A DNA stretch of 64,000 nt from Bacilli bacterium (GTDB taxonomy: Bacteria; Bacillota_I; Bacilli_A; RFN20; CAG-826): contig JAGCCQ010000007.1 of assembly GCA_017651565.1 (NCBI GenBank), forward strand, positions 1-64,000, given 5' to 3'. Below are positions 2,057 through 54,597 of the stretch, in pieces. Position 1 is the stretch's first letter; every line of letters begins with the position of its first letter. The notes beneath the pieces were generated by a model, which was given only the letters and a program-made list of their open reading frames with translations, had not been told where the DNA came from and searched no databases. Made by a program: the position numbers and the translations under genes.

Positions 2057-5000
2057 TTATGGATTTGGCTGTGGTTGAGTATTGCCTGAATTGGTAAATA
2101 GGATATATTCAGAGCCACTAGCAGTACGAATATAGAACACACCTTCTCCAATGTAATAAACTGTTACAGCAGGGTTAGCACTTGTTGAAGTAGGGCTGGA
2201 ACCACTTAAACCAAATTCGAATATGTAGTAGCCGCTATCAGTAATTACAGTTTCTTTTTCAGGATAGTCAGTAACAGCAGCTAAACAACCATAGTCTGAA
2301 TAGATAAAGTTTTCTGTAACTACTTCGTTTGCTTCACGAGTATATTTGAATGTACCTATAACTTGAGGAGTTACTGTAGTACCACTAGTAGTATATCCTC
2401 CATCGGATTTAGTGAAGTCATACCATTTAGTCCATTCACCACTTTCGATTGTATCTGATACAGCAATAGTAATTGTTGGGTAAGGATTATTTTGACTTAC
2501 TACAGCAGGAACTTGAGTGTAGGAAACAACTCCGTTCATTCCACTTGTTAATTCAAAATTAGTTGCCAAATATTCAACTGTTAAGGTGAGCTGAGCGTTA
2601 ACATTTCTAAAGATAACTTCAATGCCGCTACTATTATTTGAGATATGGAGATAATAGCCAGTTGTGAATGTAGGTCCATCTCCTACCCAATCGTAACTAT
2701 ACTTAGCTATCAAAGTATAATTTGAAGTAAAACTAGTCTCGTTATATTCGATAGTTGTAGTGGCATAGTTATGAGCGGTGCTGCCTGAGCCTTCTGTTAC
2801 TATTGTAGTGATTTGCCTAATATAATTGTGCGTTATAGTGTTGTAATCGTAGTCAGTTATCCGTCGGATACGCCGCTGCGTTTGTCCTCCGACAGATCCG
2901 CCACTTAACGTCATACCATCACCAATATACTTAGATATTATAGCCGGATCGCTAGTAACTGTGATGGTGTTACCGTTTCGACTAATTGTATAAGTTCCAT
3001 CTGCATTAGGTGTTATAGTTCCATAGTAGGAATTCGTATCATCAATATTTAAAATTCCTGATCTAACAAGAGCATAAATGTCGTCTAAGTCTGCATTTTC
3101 ATCGAAGTCTGGGATAGCTCCAATATATTGTGCTCCATATGGAATGTCTCCTGAAATTGTGTCAACTACAAACATTTCATTTAGAGTTTTTCTATTTACT
3201 GTTTGAGCTGCAGCAGAAATATCTAGATAAATCAAATATCCTCCACAGCCACCTTGACAAGAACCTAGAGCATACTCTCCTTCATTAACAGGAATTTCAA
3301 AATAGTATATTCTTTTTGCATCAGATTGGTGGTTAGTATAATCAGGAATAAGAGTTGCATTTACGCCAATCCATCTTGTATCAAAAGCAAAAACATATTC
3401 TTCACCATTTACATAGAAATGCGTTTTATCTGTTGGTCTATTAGTAATGGTGGAATCATCAGACCATTCACCGTTTTCATATAAATAAATGTTATCTGCT
3501 ATTGGATCATCATTGTTTTTGTAAACGTATTTGATTTTCTCCATTGAAATAATATTATCGTTTGCATCACGCTCAATTTTGTGCAAAGCGAAGAAACTAT
3601 TATTATCATTGTGGTAGTTACCAGCAAAGAAATTAATGTAACCTTTTTCTTTCAACTTAAAGTCGACAGAATCTTCAGGCATTTGATAATTATCCTTATA
3701 TTCGTTGTTAATTAAAACTCTATCAGCTGTAATCAGTTTATCCATACCAATGCTAGAATTCATAAAGTGAATACCACTAACATATGTTGAATCAGTATCT
3801 AATGTATCTTCTAATTGTTGCAATGCAGTAGAAAATTTAACGAAGTTTAGACTTCCACTATAGTTATTGCTTGTTGCAACGCCATTTGTATTAAATGTTA
3901 TCGGGCTTAGCTGAGTGTTCCCGTTATAACAACTATCATTGATGGTATATAAATTTTTGCCGGTTCCAGTAAAACTACCATTGGAGTACGAGCTAGAGAT
4001 TCTTGCGATATCATATTGCGAGATACGAACGTCACCAAAGTTACCAGTTTGAAGAGTGGTTGTGTTTTGTCCATTATATCTATCATAATATCCACCAACA
4101 ACATATCCAGTATTCATTGGAGATGTGTAGAAATGTTCAACACTGATTTTGCCTTGCTGATAGTTAAAAGGATTGTCGTTACCTTTCAAACTATCTCCAT
4201 TAACAGTAAGTGGAATATATCCAGGTTGTCCTGATCTTTCGGTTATACCAGATGATAAAGTGAATCCAGCTTCTGTTGTCCCAGTATATGCAAAATTTTG
4301 AGTATTTAAATCATAGTTTCTTTCTGTGAGAGTTATTAAGGTATAGTCATTTGTTTGAGTTGAAGTACTGGTCCAAGAAGTATTACTTAGTCTTAAGTAA
4401 CGATTGTTGCTATATCTAAAATAGTACTGATTTCCACTTGTTGTTACTGTCCAAGATCCTGTATTAGTATTGCCTTCAAGACCACTATTGGTAGCTCTAA
4501 TATAATATGTGTTTCTATTGTAAACACAAGAAATTGTAACAGTTGATCCATTAGTCGGAGTTGGACTAATTGTAAATTCTGTAGCGCTTGCGAGGCTGGC
4601 AGTTGAACCAATACTTCCACTATAAGTGAGATATCTATAATTATTATTTGCCGAAATAGCGTATGTAATGTTATCTTTATATTCTGCTTGTAATTGGCCA
4701 TTCACTATAGACCAATCAGTTACGCTTGATTCTCCTACGCTAAAAGATGTTCCGTTATAATTTAAGTAGAAAACTTTTTCTTGAAGATCATTATTAGCGC
4801 TATTGTATCCGTTTATAGTTTCACTTACTTCTGCGTGTGCTACTAAAGCGCCATTTTTAAGATGCCATTTTGCAGCATTAGATGAATTTGCGGTAGTGGT
4901 TAAAGTGCCGGTATTAGAAATAGCAGTAAAGTTTCCAGTGTTGTCGCTTGTAGTTCTAACATAATAACAATTGTCTATTTGACTGTCATAATGCAATTCA

Positions 5001-6361
5001 TAAACTGTCTTAGCGGTACTTTCGCTGATATCTGTTAAGCCACCAACATAAGCTTTATGGTCTGTATTAGGAGCGTTTTCGCCAGTATTTCCACTTTGAT
5101 TAATAAAATAGTAGCTCCCAATAGTTTCGCCAGATACATATTCACTATCTGCAGCGACCGTTTTATCGGATGAATAGTAAACAGGTTTAGTAAAACTTGA
5201 ATACATTCTTCCGTAATGTCTATTATCGTAGAGGACATTCGTGTCTATTAAATCGCCATTTTCATCGTATATTTTTGTTTCTTTTTTTGGATACTCAGGA
5301 ATTGTTCCGTCACTTTTTCTTCCATCCATAAATCTCGATTTATAGATTCTTTGCAACATCTTTGCCATGTCAACAGAACCACCCCAAGAAGTTCCTGAAC
5401 TGTTGCTGACATAAGTTTTAGTTGTTGCTTTTGGGTCATATACTTGTTCGTTAACTAAATCGACAGTACGTTTATAATTAGGCTCAACAAAACCAAAAGC
5501 AATGTATTCTGATAGGTTTGTTGTGCCAATATTTTGGACAGATGCTAGTCCACTTTCAAAACTTAGGGATGCGCCATGAATTCCAACATTTGTTACAGTT
5601 GCGTTAGAGTAACCTGCAACAGCACCAGCTAAGGCATGTGCTGAATCTGTTGATGCAACAATTGTAACGTTATCTAAATAGAAATTTTGAACATAGTTAC
5701 CAGCGGTAGTGTATGTAACTAAAACATTATTGTCGTTTGTGTCGAGTAACTCATGAATAGTACCATCGCTATCAATGATTGATGAAGGTACGACATTTGT
5801 TGATTCAGTAGTACCTAATACACCAAATAATCCAAGTATTTCGTAAGAATCACTGTGAGTATTACTTCCTGATGGATGCCTTGGGTCTTTTGTGTATTCG
5901 CTATAATCGTTAGAAATAGTTAAATCGGTAATAACGTGACCATTACCATCAAAGGAACCAACAAAAGGATATTTAACAGTGCCAATAGGTGGAATTACAT
6001 AACTTTCGTCGTTACTGATATCCATATCTAAGTCTTTTGAAAGAATGAAATGATATTGTTGTTTAAGAACGTATTCGCCTGTATTTTCATCTAATACTGC
6101 TTCATTGAAGTAGCCCATTTCTTGCAGCCAAGAAAGGTAATATAACTGAATTGGACGAGCAATTTCAAATGGACTAGCAGCAGTGCCATCTCCACTTTCA
6201 AAATATGAACCATGAATGTTTCCGTCAACGCTAATAGGTGAAGATGTATCTGAATTAAACCAAGATATTGTAGGAAGCAAAATGGACATGCCAAAAGCAC
6301 ATGCGCTCACACCGAGTATCATTGCTTTAGTATTAAGTTTCTTAAAAATCTTAAGTGCCAT
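2057..6361 (-). CDS. Giant secreted surface protein with SipW/TasA-like signal (1434 aa)
   Basis: A very large exported protein of unknown precise function, probably a matrix or adhesin component. The N-terminus has a basic start, a hydrophobic segment (about residues 14-33) ending in Trp34-Phe35, then a short linker and VDGN; this resembles the alternative signal of SipW-processed TasA-type proteins rather than a normal signal. Residues 60-150 include SPFEIARPIQLYYLSWLQ and PFVGSFDGNGHVITDL, a GLUG/beta-helix-like adhesin segment. The middle is rich in Ser/Thr/Asn/Tyr strand repeats. Residues about 708-1050 are homologous to residues 1149-1450 of the other giant at 7674 (shared HFM, PEDSxDF, INFFAG/ISFFAG, GEYALGS motifs). 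The end is Pro/Gln-rich with no LPXTG motif or membrane anchor. An AAAGGA site precedes ATG 6361, 16 bases after the short partner gene. No cognate signal peptidase lies in the window. Confidence 0.8.
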   Translation of the reverse strand: MALKIFKKLNTKAMILGVSACAFGMSILLPTISWFNSDTSSPISVDGNIHGSYFESGDGTAASPFEIARPIQLYYLSWLQEMGYFNEAVLDENTGEYVLKQQYHFILSKDLDMDISNDESYVIPPIGTVKYPFVGSFDGNGHVITDLTISNDYSEYTKDPRHPSGSNTHSDSYEILGLFGVLGTTESTNVVPSSIIDSDGTIHELLDTNDNNVLVTYTTAGNYVQNFYLDNVTIVASTDSAHALAGAVAGYSNATVTNVGIHGASLSFESGLASVQNIGTTNLSEYIAFGFVEPNYKRTVDLVNEQVYDPKATTKTYVSNSSGTSWGGSVDMAKMLQRIYKSRFMDGRKSDGTIPEYPKKETKIYDENGDLIDTNVLYDNRHYGRMYSSFTKPVYYSSDKTVAADSEYVSGETIGSYYFINQSGNTGENAPNTDHKAYVGGLTDISESTAKTVYELHYDSQIDNCYYVRTTSDNTGNFTAISNTGTLTTTANSSNAAKWHLKNGALVAHAEVSETINGYNSANNDLQEKVFYLNYNGTSFSVGESSVTDWSIVNGQLQAEYKDNITYAISANNNYRYLTYSGSIGSTASLASATEFTISPTPTNGSTVTISCVYNRNTYYIRATNSGLEGNTNTGSWTVTTSGNQYYFRYSNNRYLRLSNTSWTSTSTQTNDYTLITLTERNYDLNTQNFAYTGTTEAGFTLSSGITERSGQPGYIPLTVNGDSLKGNDNPFNYQQGKISVEHFYTSPMNTGYVVGGYYDRYNGQNTTTLQTGNFGDVRISQYDIARISSSYSNGSFTGTGKNLYTINDSCYNGNTQLSPITFNTNGVATSNNYSGSLNFVKFSTALQQLEDTLDTDSTYVSGIHFMNSSIGMDKLITADRVLINNEYKDNYQMPEDSVDFKLKEKGYINFFAGNYHNDNNSFFALHKIERDANDNIISMEKIKYVYKNNDDPIADNIYLYENGEWSDDSTITNRPTDKTHFYVNGEEYVFAFDTRWIGVNATLIPDYTNHQSDAKRIYYFEIPVNEGEYALGSCQGGCGGYLIYLDISAAAQTVNRKTLNEMFVVDTISGDIPYGAQYIGAIPDFDENADLDDIYALVRSGILNIDDTNSYYGTITPNADGTYTISRNGNTITVTSDPAIISKYIGDGMTLSGGSVGGQTQRRIRRITDYDYNTITHNYIRQITTIVTEGSGSTAHNYATTTIEYNETSFTSNYTLIAKYSYDWVGDGPTFTTGYYLHISNNSSGIEVIFRNVNAQLTLTVEYLATNFELTSGMNGVVSYTQVPAVVSQNNPYPTITIAVSDTIESGEWTKWYDFTKSDGGYTTSGTTVTPQVIGTFKYTREANEVVTENFIYSDYGCLAAVTDYPEKETVITDSGYYIFEFGLSGSSPTSTSANPAVTVYYIGEGVFYIRTASGSEYILFTNSGNTQPQPNP

Positions 6362-6377: not shown

Positions 6378-7271
6378 TCATTCGACTGAGACGATAATGT
6401 CTTTTAAATCGTTGCCTAATGTAACGTCGTTTGCTCCCAAACCATTAATTTCAGTAAAGTCATCGTTTTCAGTGAACTTTTCAATTAATGATTCGTTGTA
6501 GTTTATGTAAAGAAGTACATTTAAGTGGTTTACATTGTTGATAGTTGTAACCGAAGTATATTGTAAAGTGAGAATAATCGAATCACGTTTACTATTTCCG
6601 TTTACTGCATCAATTATTACGAAATTTAAAGGAGTGATAGTAGGGGCAGCTGGAGGCTGTGGATTTATACCTGCTTTGAAGTAAGCGTCTGCTGCTTGCA
6701 TAAATGCGCTTACATTAGTGATATTATCTAAATCCTGATCAGTGCTATATGTTGTGAATGAATTATAGTTACTAAGTTGTCCTATCGAAAAGTCTGCTCC
6801 ACTAGAAATAAATTTGTATGTAGTTATGTCGCTTGGATCGTCTGGATCAGGATCGACAGCACTAGTGTTTCTAGTTATTTCAACAGTTACAGTTTTTGGA
6901 TCTTGAGCAGTTGCTGCAGGGACATCAGTTCCATATAGATGAATTCTTACCAATGCACCTGTATATGAATTTTGATGAATGAAGATAGTATCGTATGTGT
7001 TTAGTCTTAAATTCTTTAAGTCAAATTTCGGTGAACCATCAAGTTCTGAATCTACATCGGTTGCATCACCGTTATAGTCTTTTGTAAATTTGTAAACATA
7101 GAACTTTGCATGAGCATCATAAATATTTCCGCTAACAGTTTGACTACTTCCAACTTTTCGGTTTTCCATAAACCACGCTAAAGCAGCCGCACAAACGGCG
7201 AATAATGAAAAAAAGCACATAGATGCTGCGCCAATATATTTCAATGTTTGTTTGTTAATTTTGTTCATCAT
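6378..7271 (-). CDS. Short secreted protein with SipW/TasA-like signal (297 aa), partner of the giant
   Basis: First gene of a two-gene operon with the 1434-aa protein. It has a hydrophobic N-terminal segment (residues about 12-32) ending in Trp33-Phe34, then QTVSGN, the same layout as the other three surface proteins here and similar to TasA/camelysin-type precursors. The mature part has the DLKNLRLNTYDTIFI and ALVRIHLYG patterns that also occur, in diverged form, in the 263-aa protein at 12784, so the two are probable paralogs. By analogy with TasA systems it could be a fibre subunit and the giant its decorated partner; this is inference. Start 7271 has no clear ribosome site; the next codon is also ATG. 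I found no c-di-GMP aptamer upstream of this operon. Confidence 0.75.
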   Translation of the reverse strand: MMNKINKQTLKYIGAASMCFFSLFAVCAAALAWFMENRKVGSSQTVSGNIYDAHAKFYVYKFTKDYNGDATDVDSELDGSPKFDLKNLRLNTYDTIFIHQNSYTGALVRIHLYGTDVPAATAQDPKTVTVEITRNTSAVDPDPDDPSDITTYKFISSGADFSIGQLSNYNSFTTYSTDQDLDNITNVSAFMQAADAYFKAGINPQPPAAPTITPLNFVIIDAVNGNSKRDSIILTLQYTSVTTINNVNHLNVLLYINYNESLIEKFTENDDFTEINGLGANDVTLGNDLKDIIVSVE

Positions 7272-7534: not shown

Positions 7535-7563
7535 TTGGTATAGTTATTAACTATATGTATAAT
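7535..7563 (+). promoter_or_regulatory. Sigma-70-type promoter for riboswitch and giant gene
   Basis: TTGGTA (7535-7540), 17-base spacer, TATAAT (7558-7563). Transcription would begin near 7570, just before the aptamer. The spacer contains the palindrome TAGTTATTAACTA (7541-7553), a possible operator. Confidence 0.75.
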
Positions 7564-7573
7564 GAAATTGTAT

Positions 7574-7640
7574 AAGGGCAAAACTACAGAAATGTAGCGA
7601 CGCAAAACTAAAGGGTCTTAAAAAGATAGCCAGTTGCCGG
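7574..7640 (+). ncRNA. c-di-GMP-I (GEMM) riboswitch aptamer
   Basis: The leader has the GEMM-I signature in order: GGGCAAAAC, a hairpin CTACA-GAAA-TGTAG with the GAAA tetraloop, the conserved GACGCAAAAC, GGGTCT pairing with AGATAGCC for the second stem, and the closing TTGCC that pairs with GGCAA of the 5' strand. It lies between a good promoter and the start of the 1613-aa surface protein. A near-identical copy stands upstream of the 263-aa gene (13585-13655). Known GEMM-I RNAs bind cyclic di-GMP and control motility, biofilm and surface genes. Confidence 0.92.
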
Positions 7641-7663
7641 AGAAGAAAGGCAACTTTTTATTT
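7633..7663 (+). terminator. Riboswitch-controlled terminator (expression platform)
   Basis: GTTGCC (7633-7638) can pair with GGCAAC (7649-7654), followed by TTTTTATTTT. The left arm includes the TTGCC that closes the aptamer stem, so the two structures exclude each other: ligand-stabilised aptamer should prevent the terminator, giving an ON switch by antitermination (inference from pairing). Confidence 0.85.
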
Positions 7664-7673
7664 TCAAAAAACT

Positions 7674-10600
7674 ATGTTTAAAGCCAAAAGAAAGATTGTA
7701 ATTACATCGTTAATTTCAATGATTGGCGTCCTTATAGGGGCTCTATCAGTTTCTTTAACATGGTTTGCAAAAATGAACTCAATTGACGATCTTGAAATTG
7801 GTGGGTCTGTCTTATCTCAATATTTTGATTCTGGAACTGGCACAGACGCTGATCCTTTTGTTATCACTCGTCCAAAACACTGGGAGAACCTTGTTTGGTT
7901 ACATAATAACGTTAGTAATTTCTATCAAGCTATCACTGATAATGAAGTAAGTCCTGAGCAACAAAATGACCAAGGTTATTATTTCCAAGTTGGCAAATTA
8001 AACGAAACTTTAAATGATGGAGTTTACTATGTTTACGATTATACAAACGAAGGATTAATCAATCCTAATAACACTCTTTTAAATAGTAGAACTCTTAACC
8101 TTCAAGGTCTTGGTTCATTAATTCCTATTGGATGCGACACTAAACCATTTTTGGGTGTTTTAAATGGGCACGGTATTTGTGTTTCTGGTTTTGATATTCT
8201 TGGATACGAAGATATAAATTATAACCTACAACATGATGTAGGAGAAGATGGATTTAATGATGTTGGAATCTTTGGATATATTGGCAACGATTCAGCTGTT
8301 AATAATATTTATTTTGATAATTTCACAATTCATTTAGCCAATGCTAGTTCTATTCGTTCAAATAACTCTCAATTACATAACGAAAGCTTCCATACTTCTG
8401 TTGAAGACGGAGATCCTGACATTTGTTTTGCTGGCTACATAGCTGGACATATGCATTATTCTTCATCTGTTGAAGATGTTTATATTAATAACTGCACCAT
8501 TGAAAGTGGATGTGCTTCCACTGTTGGTTTTGGCTATTTTGGTGTTGTTGAAGAACAAAATGGTAATCCTAAGTCAACTCCGCTACAAGAAATTCAAGAA
8601 ATTAAACAAGCTGGTGCTGATAATAACTTTGGTGGTTCTCTTGATTTCTATACAGTTTATGAAAGACTTTCTCAAATTTATGCAACGGCTCCATCGACTA
8701 GCTATTATGTTGATAATCAAACTTTAGTTGTAAACGATAAAACTGGTACTTTAACAGGTGAAACAAAAGATTTAAATGATCCAGATAAAGATTCCATTTA
8801 TCATCACGAAACGCAAGTAACAGCATGGTCTAGCCATGGCTATAAGTACGTCGATTATGATGATTATGGTGGTGGTGTCTTTAACTTCTCAGATGATAAC
8901 GACTTAATGAGCAGTAATAATCCTAACATTTATCAATGTTTAAATGGTTTGAGTACTCATTACACAAAAACTGTTACTACTTATACGTTCTCAGATACAG
9001 CCTATGGTTGTTTCCTTATTCAAAACGGAGATTATTATTTAAATCACAGATATTATCCGACTGTTCAAGCAGAAACAGATGAAAACTATGCTGCTGGATG
9101 GAATTTTACTGGCAATGATACAGGCAATCTTTATACAAAGGTATTTGATGTTACATATTATTTAAACCGCTCAAATTATTCTTTAACAATGAGTACAACA
9201 CCTTCTACTACTTGGACTAAAAATACTGATGGCGAAATTTATACAGTCGTTAATGGTGCTAATTATTATATAGATTATGATAATGGTTGGTGTTTATCTC
9301 CGTATAAAGATAGGTACACAATCAATGATGGAAATGGTCATTATTTAACTTGCACTAATTCTAATATTGGTAACTCAGGTTCAGCTGCAAACGCGACAAA
9401 ATTTATTCTTGCTAATCCTTCTGGTGATACCACGATTTTATTTAAATATAATAATAATTATTACTATTTAAGTAATACAAACGAATCTTTGGCTATTTCT
9501 ACTACAGCTAAAACATGGAATAAAGAAGGAGATTATTACTATACAACTATTCAAGGCCATAAATATTTCTTAGTTTATAGTGGTGGTTGGACTTTACAGG
9601 TTGAAGATGGAGTTAGATTAGGTGATGGGAATAACCATTACATTACCTCTACAAACAATAGTGCAGTAAGCAATACAGGAACATTAAATAATTCTGTCAT
9701 TTGGCATTTCTCTACTTCATCAGGTGATACTCAAATTTACTATATTAGCGGTGGAACCAAGTATTACTTAAATCATTCAAATGCTGGTGCATTATCAATT
9801 TCATCATCTTCGTCCTCAAATTCTACTTGGAAGAGAAATGGTGATGGCCTTTATTTCTCCTACGGCAATTTTGACTATTACTTAACATATTCTAATAATG
9901 CTTGGAGAGTGGTAGATGTTGAATACTACACTATTAATGATGGAAATGGTCATTATCTTTCGGCAAATGGTTCTAATACGTTCTCAAATGCAAATGCTAG
10001 CGGTGCTACACATTTCTATTTCCAAAACAATCCTTTCATAAATCCTGAAATAATAAATCCATATGGCACAATTAATTATGTTTATAATGGCACAATTTAT
10101 TATTTAAATCTTTCAATTAATGGCTCTTCTGGAACTTTACAGTCTTCTAATTCTAGTAGTAGTACAAGCTGGCTTAATAATGGCAATTCGATTTATTTTA
10201 TAGATAATGAGGTAACTTACTTCTTGGAATATAACAATGGCTGGGTTATTAGAAGGTATGCTGATGCAGGCTACATTACTGATGGAACAAATTATATGAC
10301 CGTAAGCGGAACAACAATTGGAAATACTACTGATGTAAACGCTGCTACTTTGTTTGTATTCTCTATATCTGGCACTAATCCAAGTGGAACTATTCGCGCT
10401 TTGGGAACTACAACTTACTTAACCAATAATAACGGGAGTTTGAGAGCTTCAAGCACAGCTACGATTTGGGAGAACAATGGTTCTAATTTTTATAATGGAA
10501 ATTATTACTTAAAATTTTACGATGGTTCTTGGACATTGGACACTGACAATTATGTAGGATTCTATATTGCTAAAGGCGATTATTATTTGATTTATAATGG

Positions 10601-12515
10601 TTCATCACTTTTGGGTTCTACAACCCCATCAACTATTTGGATTCCTTCTGCTGGGTCTTTCTCTAGTGATCCTGGAACAATTAGAATAGCGGGTTCAACC
10701 AATCAATACCTATATATTAGTACTGGATCAGGTACAACAGTTAGCGTTGGTTCGTCGAGGTCCTGGATTTTGACCAATGGTACTATAGCTTATCGGTATA
10801 GCAACAGATATTATTACATTTCTGCTATTTCAACTAGTGGTGTTACGGCCACAAGAACTGGCACAAATGGAACAGTTCCTAATAGTGCTGCTTTAACATT
10901 TACTCAAGCTGTTGGCTATTCAAAAACTACTATTTTGGATAATACTTTAAGAAATACTATTTCAACAAAAATGGAGGTTTCTAAACCACAAATTACAAGA
11001 ACTAATTATGCTGCAAACAAAAATAGTAGTTCTGACTTCTCTCATACTGAAGACTACTCATTACAATACTCTGCTCAACAATTACAAGAATGCATAAAGT
11101 CTACAGAAACTAATGTAAAGAGCGGACAAGTGACATATTTCCCATTACGTGTAGATAAGGTAGAAGGAACTAATAACTATCCAACTGGATGGCCAGCTTC
11201 AGATAAGAATACTGGCTATATTATTAGTGGATCTAACCTTGAAGGTAGTAGTTCAACTGATGCAGATCAAAAACAATGGGGCGATATTCGTATTTCAGGT
11301 TGGGCAAAAAGCAATATTGCTGGTTCATATTCTAATGGTGCATTCTCAACGATTTATACTGTTGATGGTACAAATTCAAATACGATTAGACAACTAAACG
11401 CTAATGAAAAAGCTGATAGTGATTATCAACATGCTTTATCTGAATTTGGAACAACATTAACTAAGAACTCTAGAGTTTTTGGTATTCACTTTATGGATGC
11501 TGCTATTTCTACTAACCATACTCTCAGAGCTAGACAAGCAAAGATTCTTGGACAAACTTATTATGATTACGAATTACCTGAAGACTCAATTGACTTCAAC
11601 GTTTATCAAAGAGGAAAAATTAGTTTCTTTGCTGGTGAATATTTCACAAATAATAATGCATTCTTCTCATTACATAGAATCTTTAGAGACTCAAATAATA
11701 ACATCACTTCTATTAAAGAAATCTCTGAAATTTATGCTCATAGTTTAAGACCAAATAAAACAAACTATGTTTATAAATTCACTGATAATACTTATACAAA
11801 CGCAAATGGTACTTATACTGGTGAAACAACAAGAGATAGTAACTATAGCTCTACACCTGTATTTAAGACGTCATGGATTAAAGCTCCATCAGGCTTGAGC
11901 ACAAGTAGTCAAAGATTATTCTATTTCTCCATTCCTTGTAATGCTGGTGAATATGCATTAGGTTCTGTTAGTGGTAAAACTGGTGCTTACTTATGTTACC
12001 TTGATATCGCTGCTAATGGTGGTGATGCTGTTCTTGAGTATATGAAAGACCCTGTAAGTATCAACGCATTTGATGTTGACTTCAGATCTCCTGGCGATGT
12101 TTCTCCACATTGTATTATTCAACTCGGTGCTGAATTGCCTACTGTAAGTACTAATACAAGCAATTTACAAGTTAGTGTTATTTTTGTAAGGGATCCATCT
12201 ACTTTACCTAACGGTGACGATTATAAGGCTTATTACCCGACAGGAGGTGGAATATACATCATCCGGATAACGAATAAAACGGGTCAAATGTTTAAACTTA
12301 GTGTATTACTGGTCGATGACGATGACGACTTATATAGTGAGTACACGTTTGCATACCGGTTGATTTACACGAACGAGGACCACACAGATACCGTAATTGA
12401 CGGTACTACCCTCTACGATGGTTTGGAAACTGAGGTAGATTTTTGGCAAAGAATGGCTATCTTTGACATTCCTAGTTCTGGGGAGGCCGTTGAAGACGAT
12501 TATAAAGATGAATAA
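7674..12515 (+). CDS. Giant c-di-GMP-riboswitch-controlled surface protein (1613 aa)
   Basis: Exported protein with the atypical signal ending in Trp30-Phe31. Residues 55-180 carry a GLUG/beta-helix-like region (DPFVITRPKHWENLVWL; PFLGVLNGHG). From about 444 to 1060 there are five to six tandem units of 100-115 residues, starting near 444, 547, 646, 751, 866 and 962 with lines such as INDGNGHYL. Each unit seems to hold three 35-residue strand repeats with YYL/YFL motifs, so a string of beta-trefoil-like domains is likely (inference). Residues 1149-1450 match residues 708-1050 of the giant at 2057. The last 110 residues use different codons and are very acidic; no sortase motif or anchor. Probably an extracellular carbohydrate-binding matrix or adhesion protein made when c-di-GMP is high. 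No ribosome site is seen; the terminator's U-tract ends 10 bases before ATG. Confidence 0.82.
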   Translation: MFKAKRKIVITSLISMIGVLIGALSVSLTWFAKMNSIDDLEIGGSVLSQYFDSGTGTDADPFVITRPKHWENLVWLHNNVSNFYQAITDNEVSPEQQNDQGYYFQVGKLNETLNDGVYYVYDYTNEGLINPNNTLLNSRTLNLQGLGSLIPIGCDTKPFLGVLNGHGICVSGFDILGYEDINYNLQHDVGEDGFNDVGIFGYIGNDSAVNNIYFDNFTIHLANASSIRSNNSQLHNESFHTSVEDGDPDICFAGYIAGHMHYSSSVEDVYINNCTIESGCASTVGFGYFGVVEEQNGNPKSTPLQEIQEIKQAGADNNFGGSLDFYTVYERLSQIYATAPSTSYYVDNQTLVVNDKTGTLTGETKDLNDPDKDSIYHHETQVTAWSSHGYKYVDYDDYGGGVFNFSDDNDLMSSNNPNIYQCLNGLSTHYTKTVTTYTFSDTAYGCFLIQNGDYYLNHRYYPTVQAETDENYAAGWNFTGNDTGNLYTKVFDVTYYLNRSNYSLTMSTTPSTTWTKNTDGEIYTVVNGANYYIDYDNGWCLSPYKDRYTINDGNGHYLTCTNSNIGNSGSAANATKFILANPSGDTTILFKYNNNYYYLSNTNESLAISTTAKTWNKEGDYYYTTIQGHKYFLVYSGGWTLQVEDGVRLGDGNNHYITSTNNSAVSNTGTLNNSVIWHFSTSSGDTQIYYISGGTKYYLNHSNAGALSISSSSSSNSTWKRNGDGLYFSYGNFDYYLTYSNNAWRVVDVEYYTINDGNGHYLSANGSNTFSNANASGATHFYFQNNPFINPEIINPYGTINYVYNGTIYYLNLSINGSSGTLQSSNSSSSTSWLNNGNSIYFIDNEVTYFLEYNNGWVIRRYADAGYITDGTNYMTVSGTTIGNTTDVNAATLFVFSISGTNPSGTIRALGTTTYLTNNNGSLRASSTATIWENNGSNFYNGNYYLKFYDGSWTLDTDNYVGFYIAKGDYYLIYNGSSLLGSTTPSTIWIPSAGSFSSDPGTIRIAGSTNQYLYISTGSGTTVSVGSSRSWILTNGTIAYRYSNRYYYISAISTSGVTATRTGTNGTVPNSAALTFTQAVGYSKTTILDNTLRNTISTKMEVSKPQITRTNYAANKNSSSDFSHTEDYSLQYSAQQLQECIKSTETNVKSGQVTYFPLRVDKVEGTNNYPTGWPASDKNTGYIISGSNLEGSSSTDADQKQWGDIRISGWAKSNIAGSYSNGAFSTIYTVDGTNSNTIRQLNANEKADSDYQHALSEFGTTLTKNSRVFGIHFMDAAISTNHTLRARQAKILGQTYYDYELPEDSIDFNVYQRGKISFFAGEYFTNNNAFFSLHRIFRDSNNNITSIKEISEIYAHSLRPNKTNYVYKFTDNTYTNANGTYTGETTRDSNYSSTPVFKTSWIKAPSGLSTSSQRLFYFSIPCNAGEYALGSVSGKTGAYLCYLDIAANGGDAVLEYMKDPVSINAFDVDFRSPGDVSPHCIIQLGAELPTVSTNTSNLQVSVIFVRDPSTLPNGDDYKAYYPTGGGIYIIRITNKTGQMFKLSVLLVDDDDDLYSEYTFAYRLIYTNEDHTDTVIDGTTLYDGLETEVDFWQRMAIFDIPSSGEAVEDDYKDE

Positions 12516-12783: not shown

Positions 12784-13575
12784 CTAGATTGAAGTGTGCG
12801 TATCAATAATTATTCTCCAAATGTCTGATGAGAATGTAATTTCTTGCGAACCTGTAAAGACTGTTAAGTCGAAGGTTGCCTCCGCATTGGCTTGATAATA
12901 CGCAATCAAGTCAGTGTTGTATGTATATTCGATGTATAAGTCAGTTGTGTAAGCACCAACGTTAGAAGATTGTGCTAGTGGAATACTATGATCTTCTATT
13001 GAGTTAGTTGGTTTAGAACCAGTTACGTCGTCTCCATTATTTGTTAAGATAACGAATTTAGACATATTACTGATGCCATTGAAGACAGTTTTGCATGAGC
13101 TGTAGATTGTAGCGACACTTGTTTCGTCGATACCGCCTGCAATATTGTCATAATATTTAAATTGGATTAAGTTAGAAATATTTGTATCTACGTATTCTGG
13201 ATTATTTATGTCAAATAATGGGCCTCTACAGTCAACAGTTAATGATAAATATGTGTTTGCAGGAACTCCATTAGGATATTGAAGAGTCAATTTTAAGAAC
13301 TTACGTGCGTATACATTTCTAGTAGTAATGAAGCAATCGTATGGTTCTAAGTTCATATCAGTTGTTTCGATAGGTTCGTCGTGTTGATAATCCCATGTGT
13401 AGATATGCTTAGCAAGGATGTCGACATTTTGTTCATTACGAGATGAGACAACCATACCAGATGCTGATACAGTTCTATTTGCGTTAAACCATGCAACAGT
13501 TGCAGTTAAAAGAGTCGAGAGGTTAATCCCGACAAAAGAAATGCCAGCTACAATGATTTTAGTCTTCTTTTCCAT
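12784..13575 (-). CDS. Short c-di-GMP-riboswitch-controlled secreted protein with SipW/TasA-like signal (263 aa)
   Basis: Hydrophobic N-terminus (residues 6-28) ends in Trp29-Phe30 followed by NANRTVSASG, the same unusual signal as its three neighbours. The mature part is strand-rich (KFLKLTLQYPNG, YLSLTVDCRG, LYIEYTYNTDL) and ends without an anchor. It looks like a diverged paralog of the 297-aa protein at 6378; both are TasA-like in size and signal. The gene faces the 1613-aa giant across a shared terminator and has its own promoter and c-di-GMP-I aptamer, so both should respond to the same second messenger. No ribosome site precedes ATG 13575; the aptamer's last stem base is only nine bases away. 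A structural fibre subunit is a reasonable guess, not shown. Confidence 0.78.
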   Translation of the reverse strand: MEKKTKIIVAGISFVGINLSTLLTATVAWFNANRTVSASGMVVSSRNEQNVDILAKHIYTWDYQHDEPIETTDMNLEPYDCFITTRNVYARKFLKLTLQYPNGVPANTYLSLTVDCRGPLFDINNPEYVDTNISNLIQFKYYDNIAGGIDETSVATIYSSCKTVFNGISNMSKFVILTNNGDDVTGSKPTNSIEDHSIPLAQSSNVGAYTTDLYIEYTYNTDLIAYYQANAEATFDLTVFTGSQEITFSSDIWRIIIDTHTSI

Positions 13576-13584
13576 TTAAATCAT

Positions 13585-13655
13585 ATCGGTAGCTGGCTAT
13601 CTATTTAATAGACCCTATAGTTTTGCGTCACTACATTTCTGTAGTTTTGCCTTTA
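13585..13655 (-). ncRNA. c-di-GMP-I (GEMM) riboswitch aptamer, second copy
   Basis: On the minus strand the order is GGCAAAAC, CTACA-GAAA-TGTAG hairpin, GACGCAAAAC, GGGTCT pairing with AGATAGCC, and a closing CTACCGAT. Most of its first 45 bases are identical to the aptamer at 7574. The closing stem has one mismatch. There is no terminator between aptamer and gene, unlike the other copy; the stem ends nine bases before the start codon, so control of translation start is more likely. Confidence 0.9.
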
Positions 13656-13663
13656 TCGGTTTT

Positions 13664-13692
13664 ACTATAGCTACAAAGTTAAGATTTTGCAA
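13664..13692 (-). promoter_or_regulatory. Promoter of the second riboswitch and 263-aa gene
   Basis: On the minus strand TTGCAA, 17-base spacer, TATAGT; the predicted start of RNA is just before the aptamer. Confidence 0.75.
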
Positions 13693-51275: not shown

Positions 51276-52037
51276 ATGAGTTTTTTGTATTTAGTTACTA
51301 TAGGAATTTTGATTTTATTATTTATAGGAATACTTCCTTTGATGAAGCGTTTTAAAAATATAAAAATCACTAATATTGTGTTTGTTAGCATTATTTTCGT
51401 TTGTTATTTAATAATGGTAATTCTTGGATACATACATAATGGTATACATGATTGGAATTTCCATATTTTATTACCTACTGCAAACGTAAGCCCTTTTATG
51501 TTCTTTGTAACTCCTTTGTATCTTGTTCTTCCAAAGAATATAAGAAAATATTTTGGAACATTAATCGCTATTTTGTTGATTGGTATGATTTTGTCGCCTG
51601 TACTTACTTGTGTAAATTTCTTCCGTATCGGTTATAAGTTTCATCCACGTTTTGTTATTGATTACTTTATTCATATAGTTCTTGCTTTATTTGGTGTGTA
51701 TCTTGTCCAATCAGGGCAAGTTGAACTTAATAAGAAGAACTGTTTAGTTGCAGCAGGAATCATTTATGGAGTCTGCTTCATCATGACAATTTTAAACTTA
51801 ATATTTGATGCTTCATTCTTCGGTCTTTCATTGAGAGGAAAGCACAGTATTTATAATATGGTATTAGTTAGTAACTCCTTCTTATCTGCTCTTATTTACT
51901 TTGCTGGATTAGCTATTGTTTTAGCTATTAGTTTTGTTTTACAAAAATTATTATTAAGAGTCTTGAAAAAAGAAGTTAAATCTAATTTAATATATGAAAA
52001 TAAGGAAAACGAAAAGGTAAAAGATGGATCACGCTAG
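51276..52037 (+). CDS. Multi-pass membrane protein, YwaF/TMEM164-like
   Basis: 253 aa with seven or eight hydrophobic helices. The pattern DWNFHILLPTANVSPFMFF, followed by LVLPKNIRKYFGTLIAIL, is related in layout to the LPLHLCN/helix pattern of the YwaF (TIGR02206) family, and to the N-terminal domain of the fusion at 35074; the match is weak. It overlaps the HD-GYP gene by 14 bases, so the two are co-expressed and could form a membrane sensor with the phosphodiesterase. The mRNA starts at or near the ATG (see promoter). Confidence 0.6.
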   Translation: MSFLYLVTIGILILLFIGILPLMKRFKNIKITNIVFVSIIFVCYLIMVILGYIHNGIHDWNFHILLPTANVSPFMFFVTPLYLVLPKNIRKYFGTLIAILLIGMILSPVLTCVNFFRIGYKFHPRFVIDYFIHIVLALFGVYLVQSGQVELNKKNCLVAAGIIYGVCFIMTILNLIFDASFFGLSLRGKHSIYNMVLVSNSFLSALIYFAGLAIVLAISFVLQKLLLRVLKKEVKSNLIYENKENEKVKDGSR

Positions 52038-53154
52038 AAAAAACATAATGAGAATATCAAAATTGCTCTACATTATTGCGAAGATTGTAGTCATTTTTAC
52101 GATTTTCATGATTGTTTTTGTTACTACTTGTTCTGTTATTTCTATATTTGTTGAAAATGCAGAACTTCGTGAGGGTGTAATGAAATACTTACAGTCACAA
52201 GGTTCTTTATCAAACTTTGGGTACTTTGGATTAGAGATATCTGATGATTATATGACATCAGTCATAGTAGGAACTTCTTTCCATTTTGTTACGAACTTTG
52301 TCATCATGCTTTATGCACTTGTTTTTACTAGAATTCTTAAAAAGGTAAGTAAAGGTGAACAACCATTCACCAAACAAAACGCAAAGAAATTATTTATTAT
52401 GTCAATAGTGGCTTTGTTGTTTATTGCAATGAACCCTATTTTATCTCTTGCATTATTCCTTGTTGGTATATTCATTTCTAACTTATTTAAGTACGCTACT
52501 TATTTAAATGAGAAGAGCCAACAAACTCAACACATTCAAGAATCTATGATTATTTCAATGGCTGAAGTTGTTGAAAATAAGAGTGACCAAACTGGTCAAC
52601 ATATTAGAAGAGTAGCGGAATACTCCAAAGTATTAGCTATGCAACTTGGCTTTACTGAAGAACAAGCAGATGTTATTAAAATGGCATCTATGATGCATGA
52701 TATTGGAAAATTATTAGTCCCTTCAGCAATATTAGAAAAACCAGGAAAACTAACTGACGAAGAATACGCTGAAATAAAAAAACATACAACATACGGCGAT
52801 AAATTGCTTAAAGATGTTGAAGGTGAAGTATTAATTTGTGCTAGAAAGATTGCTTATGAGCATCACGAAAGACCTGACGGAAAAGGATATCCTAGAGGTC
52901 TTAAGAAAAACAGCATCAGTATAGAAGGCAAAATTGTTGCTGTTGCTGATGTTTATGATGCATTAACAAGTAAAAGAACATATAAAGATGCTTGGGATTC
53001 TAAACAAGCATATGATGAAATTGTTAAAAATAGTGGAACTCAATTTGATAAGTCTGTAGTTAAAGCATTTGTAGATGCTTATGACAAAATAGATGAAATT
53101 AGAGAAAAGTTTGCAGATGCTCAACCTCAAGTTCTTGCGCCTACTGAAACATAA
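52024..53154 (+). CDS. HD-GYP c-di-GMP phosphodiesterase candidate with membrane sensor part
   Basis: 376 aa. Three to four N-terminal helices (about 10-35, 72-100, 118-155), a short linker (EKSQQTQHIQESMIIS), then an HD-GYP domain: SDQTGQHIRRVAEYSK, MASMMHDIGKLLVPSAILEK (HD at about 224-225), CARKIAYEHHERPDGKGYPR (GYP motif near 280-290), VAVADVYDALTSKRTYKDAW. All metal-binding residues are present. The family hydrolyses c-di-GMP to pGpG/GMP. The overlap with the YwaF-like gene suggests one operon. Together with the riboswitches at 7.6 and 13.6 kb it suggests an active c-di-GMP network. Confidence 0.9.
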   Translation: MDHARKNIMRISKLLYIIAKIVVIFTIFMIVFVTTCSVISIFVENAELREGVMKYLQSQGSLSNFGYFGLEISDDYMTSVIVGTSFHFVTNFVIMLYALVFTRILKKVSKGEQPFTKQNAKKLFIMSIVALLFIAMNPILSLALFLVGIFISNLFKYATYLNEKSQQTQHIQESMIISMAEVVENKSDQTGQHIRRVAEYSKVLAMQLGFTEEQADVIKMASMMHDIGKLLVPSAILEKPGKLTDEEYAEIKKHTTYGDKLLKDVEGEVLICARKIAYEHHERPDGKGYPRGLKKNSISIEGKIVAVADVYDALTSKRTYKDAWDSKQAYDEIVKNSGTQFDKSVVKAFVDAYDKIDEIREKFADAQPQVLAPTET

Positions 53155-53259: not shown

Positions 53260-54597
53260 ATGATATTTGGAAATAGAGACGATAAGGAAAAAGTATATTT
53301 AGATGCACTCAAAACCGCTAATACCTATAATCTTAAAGTATTAGTTGTAATGGTGTTTTTAAGCATACTAGCTTTAGTGTTAGATGAAATTGGCGTTTTT
53401 GCTACACCTAGAACTATAATGCTTATTGCTTCTTTTGTTTCTGTTGGGGTATTTCTTGTTCCAATTATTATTTATTTTGTTCATGATAAATTGTTAAAAA
53501 AAGAAAATCCTATTATTGAGACAAATCTATTAAAGATAATAATCATAGTTGCTTCTTTTTTAGGTGTTACTTGCATAATTGTTACATTGGCTTTCCATGT
53601 TCTTTTAGGTATAGGAATTCCTATGTTAATGGCGGCTCAATATAGAAATAATAAAAAACTAATAACCGCAGTATTTATTGCGTCTATGATATTAGTTCCA
53701 ATTAGTGTATATGGAACGTTTTTCTTTGGAACTATAGACCGCAATATTTTAAAGATTGCAACTGAAGATATAGATAAATACTCAACTTTCACTCAAAGAT
53801 TAGAATTAGCAACTTCAAAGAGAATGCTTGAATTATTCTTACATTATGTTCTCCCACGTGCATTATGTGTTGTCGCTATGGAAGTATTAGTTATTGGAAT
53901 CATTAACCGTAATAAGTTAATGCTAGAAAAACAAGGAGAGCTCTCTGAAAAAGTTCAAAGAGAGATGCAACACACTAGTGAGATTCAATTAAATATCATT
54001 GAAGACTTAGCAGCAGTTGTTGAAACTAGAGACTGTGAGACTGGTGAACATATTGCAAGAACTAAACAATACGTGAATATGATTGCTAATATTTTAAAAA
54101 AGAATGATAAATATAAAGATGTATTAGATGAAAAAACAATAGATCAGTACACTGAAGCAGCTCCTTTACACGATGTAGGTAAGATAGCTATTAGTGATAC
54201 TATATTGCTTAAACCAGGCAAATTAACTCCTGAAGAGTATGAACAAATGAAGGTCCACACAACTAAAGGTGGAGAGATGATATATAAGATATTTAAAAAT
54301 CTTAAAGATGAAGCTTTTATAAAACATGCTCATGATATTGCTTTATATCATCATGAAAAATGGGATGGAACAGGCTATCCTGAAGGAATTAAGGGAGAAG
54401 AGATTCCTCTTAGTGCTAGAATTATGGCTATCGCTGATGTTTATGATGCTCTTGTTTCTAAAAGAGTATATAAAGATGCGATGGATCCTAATGATGCATT
54501 TGATATTTTAGAAAAAGATGCTGGAAGTCATTTCGACCCTAATATAATTGAAATAATCAAAGAATATAGAAAAGATTTTGTTGATAGTGTGAAGTAA
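53260..54597 (+). CDS. Second HD-GYP c-di-GMP phosphodiesterase candidate
   Basis: 445 aa. Five or so N-terminal helices (25-45, 52-72, 85-115, 125-150, 190-215) form a membrane part unlike that of the first HD-GYP protein. A coiled linker (SEKVQREMQHTSEIQLNIIE) leads to the catalytic domain: CETGEHIARTKQYVNMIANI, APLHDVGKIAISDTILLKPG (HD near 304), ALYHHEKWDGTGYPEGIKGE (GYP near 364-374), MAIADVYDALVSKRVYKDAM. All key residues are intact. Own promoter region with a TAAAAT box nine bases from the ATG, no ribosome site, so it is probably leaderless. Two such enzymes with different sensors would tune c-di-GMP for different signals. Confidence 0.9.
   Translation: MIFGNRDDKEKVYLDALKTANTYNLKVLVVMVFLSILALVLDEIGVFATPRTIMLIASFVSVGVFLVPIIIYFVHDKLLKKENPIIETNLLKIIIIVASFLGVTCIIVTLAFHVLLGIGIPMLMAAQYRNNKKLITAVFIASMILVPISVYGTFFFGTIDRNILKIATEDIDKYSTFTQRLELATSKRMLELFLHYVLPRALCVVAMEVLVIGIINRNKLMLEKQGELSEKVQREMQHTSEIQLNIIEDLAAVVETRDCETGEHIARTKQYVNMIANILKKNDKYKDVLDEKTIDQYTEAAPLHDVGKIAISDTILLKPGKLTPEEYEQMKVHTTKGGEMIYKIFKNLKDEAFIKHAHDIALYHHEKWDGTGYPEGIKGEEIPLSARIMAIADVYDALVSKRVYKDAMDPNDAFDILEKDAGSHFDPNIIEIIKEYRKDFVDSVK

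Follow-up and report, generated by a model that had tools for sequence, protein, structure and literature searches.

The window analysed here, a stretch of 64,000 nucleotides from a Bacilli bacterium, raises the question of what controls a gene for a secreted protein of 1613 amino acids (7674-12515, + strand), which the initial annotation had placed under a c-di-GMP-I (GEMM-I) riboswitch with an antitermination platform. We found the open reading frame and, at the place claimed for it, a sigma-A-like promoter (7535-7563, +) made up of a -35 box TTGGTA (7535-7540), a spacer of 17 nt and a -10 box TATAAT (7558-7563). The covariance search that the annotation had called for bore out the aptamer, with a full-length match to the Rfam model RF01051 at 7567-7641 (+; model positions 1-87) scoring 63.7 bits (E 4e-10) against a gathering score of 35 bits. 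G20, A47 and the ligand-contact strand GCC (7636-7638) could be read off the Rfam alignment, in a numbering (G20, A47, C92) that we take to carry over from Vc2; no stable P1 was seen for this aptamer. In our assessment it is very likely that the element is a class I c-di-GMP riboswitch working as a transcription ON switch for the 1613-aa gene.

This riboswitch (riboswitch 1) lies in the 5' UTR, and its expression platform is a terminator (7632-7664), again where it had been claimed. The left arm AGTTGCC (7632-7638, +) pairs with a right arm GGCAACT (7649-7655), which runs into the U tract TTTTTATTTT (7655-7664), arm and tract together spanning 7649-7664 (+) and the tract stopping 9 nt upstream of the start of the 1613-codon open reading frame at 7674. 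The stem has only 7 bp (-9.9 kcal/mol), and its right arm arises in 0.03% of shuffles. All seven letters of the left arm also serve the aptamer, AGUU (7632-7635) as the base of P3 and GCC (7636-7638) as the unpaired ligand-contact strand according to the Rfam alignment, so aptamer and terminator are mutually exclusive and an ON switch is predicted. The initial annotation was right that TTGCC is common to both structures but wrong in making it a closing helix with GGCAA, a pairing seen solely in a plain energy fold and absent from the Rfam alignment; since the shared strand is basal P3 plus contact strand, the mutual exclusion still stands. We propose that RNA polymerase would start near 7570 and transcribe the aptamer first. 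Without c-di-GMP, AGUUGCC would quit the aptamer and pair with GGCAACU, forming an intrinsic terminator ahead of the 1613-aa gene, whereas bound c-di-GMP would hold AGUUGCC in P3 and against the ligand, and the polymerase would read through.

The availability of related genomes allowed us to assess this design by comparison. Of 114 related genomes, 36 contained RF01051 matches (74 in all; four copies in the genome studied here), and 73 of the 74 relatives' aptamers could be retrieved with their flanks, 72 being usable for a scan of the arms. When the left arm was set at 11 nt, 40 of the 72 had a right arm with a U tract behind it, against 4.3 at random places; because this short arm missed shifted terminators, we also scanned with a longer one and found a U-tract hairpin re-pairing the 3' strand of the aptamer in about 59 of the 72, against a background of 13.5. 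Arms belonging to the same RNA pair at -15.8 kcal/mol and swapped arms at -12.7 kcal/mol (SD 0.28), with no swap out of 5000 being as good. Indeed, the left arms AGUUGCC, AGCUACC, AGCUGCC and AGUUGCA each meet matching right arms, i.e. the aptamer strand and the terminator covary, which supports the anti-termination ON design proposed in the annotation, as an OFF design would not need such covariation. Furthermore, 52 of 66 related aptamers have a -10 box (5/6) at a distance of 15-26 nt upstream of the P2 GC, compared to 8.5 (maximum 15) at random places.

A second c-di-GMP-I aptamer, absent from the initial annotation, lies in the same window at 13584-13660 (-), downstream of a promoter (13664-13692, -) with TTGCAA (13692-13687), a 17-nt spacer and TATAGT (13669-13664). 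It keeps A47 and scores 66 bits with RF01051. We considered an assignment to the c-di-GMP-I-GGC variant (RF03167) and rejected it, because position 47 is A and not G and the score of 59.9 bits barely exceeds the cut-off of 59. The competing hairpin of this riboswitch 2 (13543-13597, -) pairs GCCAGCTAC (13597-13589) with GTAGCTGGC (13551-13543), which lies within the coding sequence of a 263-aa protein: the start codon sits in the loop, the hairpin ends in codons 9-11, and a U-rich stretch, ATTTCTTTTG, follows, its U tract being interrupted. The hairpin has a predicted energy of -19.0 kcal/mol and its 9-mer occurs in 0.01% of shuffles. Between this genome and the related genome G001, synonymous changes affect 1 of 15 conserved codons among the first 16 codons of the 263-aa gene, compared to 91 of 207 in the rest (p 0.005), and no such suppression is seen in the 1613-aa gene (6/13 versus 380/910), where the hairpin is not part of the coding sequence. 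The comparison of these two genomes supports a putative constraint at the RNA level on the coding hairpin. Riboswitch 2 would follow the same ON logic, and its hairpin may act by terminating transcription, by occluding the start codon or in both ways.

Several other explanations have to be weighed against an ON switch acting on transcription. Cd1 of Clostridioides difficile has the same aptamer class and a transcriptional terminator, and c-di-GMP could likewise favour the terminator here, through an unseen antiterminator; the class I switches of C. difficile, Cd1 among them as the switch of flagellar genes, are OFF switches, though their architecture differs, and in Cd1 the terminator can form alongside the aptamer (PMC9262584; PMC11477304). 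In riboswitch 1, however, coexistence is impossible, as the terminator takes its left arm from the P3 and contact strand of the aptamer itself, and this sharing is preserved by compensating changes across the relatives, which leaves an OFF switch very improbable. A decayed, functionless riboswitch could be imagined given that the host is represented by an incomplete metagenome assembly (74% complete), but it is hardly credible, for this genome and G001 both retain an intact aptamer core, the changes in P3 preserve pairing, and the ortholog in G001 keeps the terminator arms of riboswitch 1 while the loop differs. The start codon in the hairpin loop of riboswitch 2 and its interrupted U tract would fit a control that acts mainly on translation, via ribosome access, and not on termination. 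We consider this unlikely, since at riboswitch 1 the hairpin is followed by its U tract, 9 nt before the start codon, with no sequestered ribosome site, and a U tract is common to most relatives. A clear Shine-Dalgarno sequence precedes 15 of the 32 genes in the window and none is clear at the 1613-aa gene; as this gene shares that trait with about half of the others, a translational layer may nevertheless be present.

An A at position 20 is the letter associated with cGAMP riboswitches, and Hypr cyclases carry a Ser where c-di-GMP cyclases have the canonical Asp. About half of the related aptamers (35 A, 31 G), including one on contig C34 of this genome, have this A, which could mean that riboswitch 1 senses 3',3'-cGAMP, as GEMM-Ib RNAs do, or another dinucleotide. 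Both aptamers in the window, however, have G at position 20 and thus lack the A by which GEMM-Ib is recognised, and this genome, in which five GGDEF and four EAL matches exceed the cut-off, has three intact GGDEF/GGEEF domains, all of which keep the canonical Asp and not the Hypr Ser. Moreover, Bc2 of Bacillus thuringiensis has the corresponding A yet responds to c-di-GMP (PMC4933901), so A20 is no proof of cGAMP. We find a ligand other than c-di-GMP highly implausible for riboswitch 1, and judging from the sequences c-di-GMP is the expected ligand of both window aptamers. Two further observations concern c-di-GMP signalling more broadly: a class of related operons with long leaders mostly has A at position 20 (14 A, 3 G), which may tune affinity or ligand choice, and the window contains two tandem membrane HD-GYP proteins (52024-53154 and 53260-54597) that are possible c-di-GMP phosphodiesterases.

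What the two riboswitches control was assessed from the proteins themselves. The 1613-aa protein (target 1) begins with a hydrophobic signal ending in TWF, followed by a conserved beta-rich N-terminal region, repeats at about 430-1090 and a conserved region at 1125-1450. The 263-aa protein (target 2; 12784-13575, -), which has an AWF signal, is encoded convergently with it. Neither target matched a Pfam or NCBIfam family above cut-off, the best Pfam match of target 1 being Fascin at a sub-threshold 20.3 bits (cut-off 23.1). In a structure model of target 1 (residues 31-660) the repeat part is confident only at about 445-645, where the modelled repeats resemble the beta-trefoils of FGF1 and fascin (for FGF1, target TM about 0.5-0.56 with E > 0.001), and the repeat region is probably beta-trefoil-like. 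A reading of the targets as TasA/camelysin homologues was rejected, given the missing Pfam and NCBIfam matches and the absence of any significant match in the PDB to the fold modelled for the 263-aa protein (mean pLDDT 61); the adhesin-like top fold matches of this model (SdrG, Bbp) had E > 1e-3 and TM near 0.2 and were discarded as well. As the two libraries recognise neither target above cut-off, an adhesin role is something we infer.

Target 1 matches the large second genes, and target 2 belongs to the family of the small first genes, of riboswitch-led small-plus-large operons in relatives. Many relatives carry the small and the large gene in a single operon, an arrangement that suggests that targets 1 and 2 may be partners, whereas in the window the two genes stand apart and have a riboswitch each. 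The window also encodes a 297-aa protein of the small partner type with an AWF signal (6378-7271, -), for which no aptamer was found, and a secreted protein of 1434 aa (2057-6361, -) related to target 1 across target-1 residues 1148-1523.

The TasA-like signal described in the initial annotation is supported. Aromatic residues of the type seen in SipW substrates close the h-region of both signals (TWF and AWF), and the 23 small target and target-like proteins that we aligned all have A28-W29. A signal of the form A/S/T-aromatic-F/L/I/M/Y occurs in 59 of 71 riboswitch targets and in 130 of 403 other open reading frames (p 9e-16), a background raised by the inclusion of second operon genes. SipW-type peptidases are present in sister riboswitch operons, two of which (in G104 and G088) pass the SipW model TIGR02228 with 68.5 and 65.2 bits (cut-off 51.85). 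No match to TIGR02228 was obtained in the genome studied here; it does encode a divergent SipW-like protein (G000:C58:2334-3188) that is 68% identical to a G001 operon protein, itself scoring 34.5 bits and thus below cut-off. The peptidase gene lies beside an EAL gene on contig C58, apart from the riboswitch operon on contig C63, which is consistent with a contig break. We infer that the targets would be processed by SipW.

The operon type headed by the C63 riboswitch encodes, in relatives, two further proteins of AWF type together with an AAA ATPase, a signal peptidase of SipW type and an EAL protein. In two such riboswitch-led operons (L063:5304-8526 and L052:4694-7762) the ATPase is of the AAA_5, McrB-like kind and lies beside the SipW-type peptidase, in what is not an obvious defence setting; the protein that follows it has no Pfam match and looks McrC-like (DUF2357-like) by eye only. 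The C34 riboswitch of this genome leads genes for secreted proteins of 288, 1015 and 1348 aa, the last of which weakly matches a leucine-rich-repeat adhesin. In four relatives (L085, L095, L096 and L071) GGDEF diguanylate cyclases, one of them GGDEF-EAL, lie directly downstream of class I aptamers, and a feedback on the c-di-GMP level is possible there. At high c-di-GMP such a regulon, including the SipW-type peptidase, EAL and GGDEF proteins, would build and tune a surface coat or a layer of adhesins. On balance, and with considerable reserve, we favour the view that c-di-GMP, acting via class I ON riboswitches, serves as master control for a surface-protein system of SipW type in this Bacilli lineage, with one RNA design for small and large AWF cargo, for the operon of signal peptidase and AAA-ATPase and for feedback cyclases and phosphodiesterases, some of the platforms (the coding hairpin, a doubled 3' half) being unusual.

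In Bacillus subtilis, tasA is under the control of SinR and is not known to be controlled by a riboswitch. The tapA-sipW-tasA system resembles the one proposed here in the aromatic residues near the signal cleavage site, the dedicated ER-type signal peptidase and the secreted matrix protein (PMC10269814), but neither Pfam, NCBIfam nor a fold search detects TasA homology in the targets described here. It is already known that a class I ON switch can have an adhesin-like target: Bc2 of B. thuringiensis is a c-di-GMP-I RNA upstream of the collagen adhesion protein Cap that terminates without ligand and reads through with c-di-GMP (PMC4933901). This was determined by experiment for Bc2 and is predicted here, for a target likewise taken to be a surface adhesin. 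The differences are the A of Bc2 where the window aptamers have G20, a target of 1613 aa that is unrelated to Cap and has a TasA/SipW-like signal, and the SipW operon, of which the passages of PMC4933901 on Bc2 make no mention. The GEMM-Ib riboswitch of pilM in Geobacter metallireducens is also an anti-termination ON switch with mutually exclusive aptamer and terminator, by experiment (PMC9262584), and differs in its ligand (cGAMP), its target (pilus assembly) and its Gram-negative host.

The part that looks new is the regulon around SipW-type cargo; in a text search for papers containing both 'c-di-GMP riboswitch' and 'TasA', the titles and abstracts of the three matching papers held no link between a riboswitch and a TasA/SipW layer. 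The riboswitch places giant secreted proteins that family libraries do not name in a regulatory context, in a lineage known only from metagenomes, and leads to the prediction that c-di-GMP can exert direct control, through RNA, over a TasA/SipW-like surface layer. According to a review of C. difficile, c-di-GMP riboswitches usually do not control c-di-GMP enzymes (PMC11477304); the regulon described here, contrary to that pattern, includes them.

Two variations on the class I design were observed among these genomes. In some RNAs (G000:C34:40550, L046; G001:C65:176, L064; G048:C1:190913 and 178481, L099) a single aptamer 5' half precedes a duplicated 3' half (GATAGCCAG...), whose copies lie 51-56 nt apart and each have their own terminator-like hairpin; the arrangement may check the signal in two steps. 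In four genomes of one genus, GEMM-I-like RNAs scoring 30.6-39.5 bits with RF01051 lie upstream of a carboxynorspermidine synthase gene (L110:2716-2805, -; L109:2718-2804, -; L108:1355-1444; L106:1341-1425). Their core is altered, with an A21-U46 pair, U at position 47 and a changed contact strand, and their P2 covaries; these polyamine-operon RNAs are possibly a riboswitch variant with another ligand.
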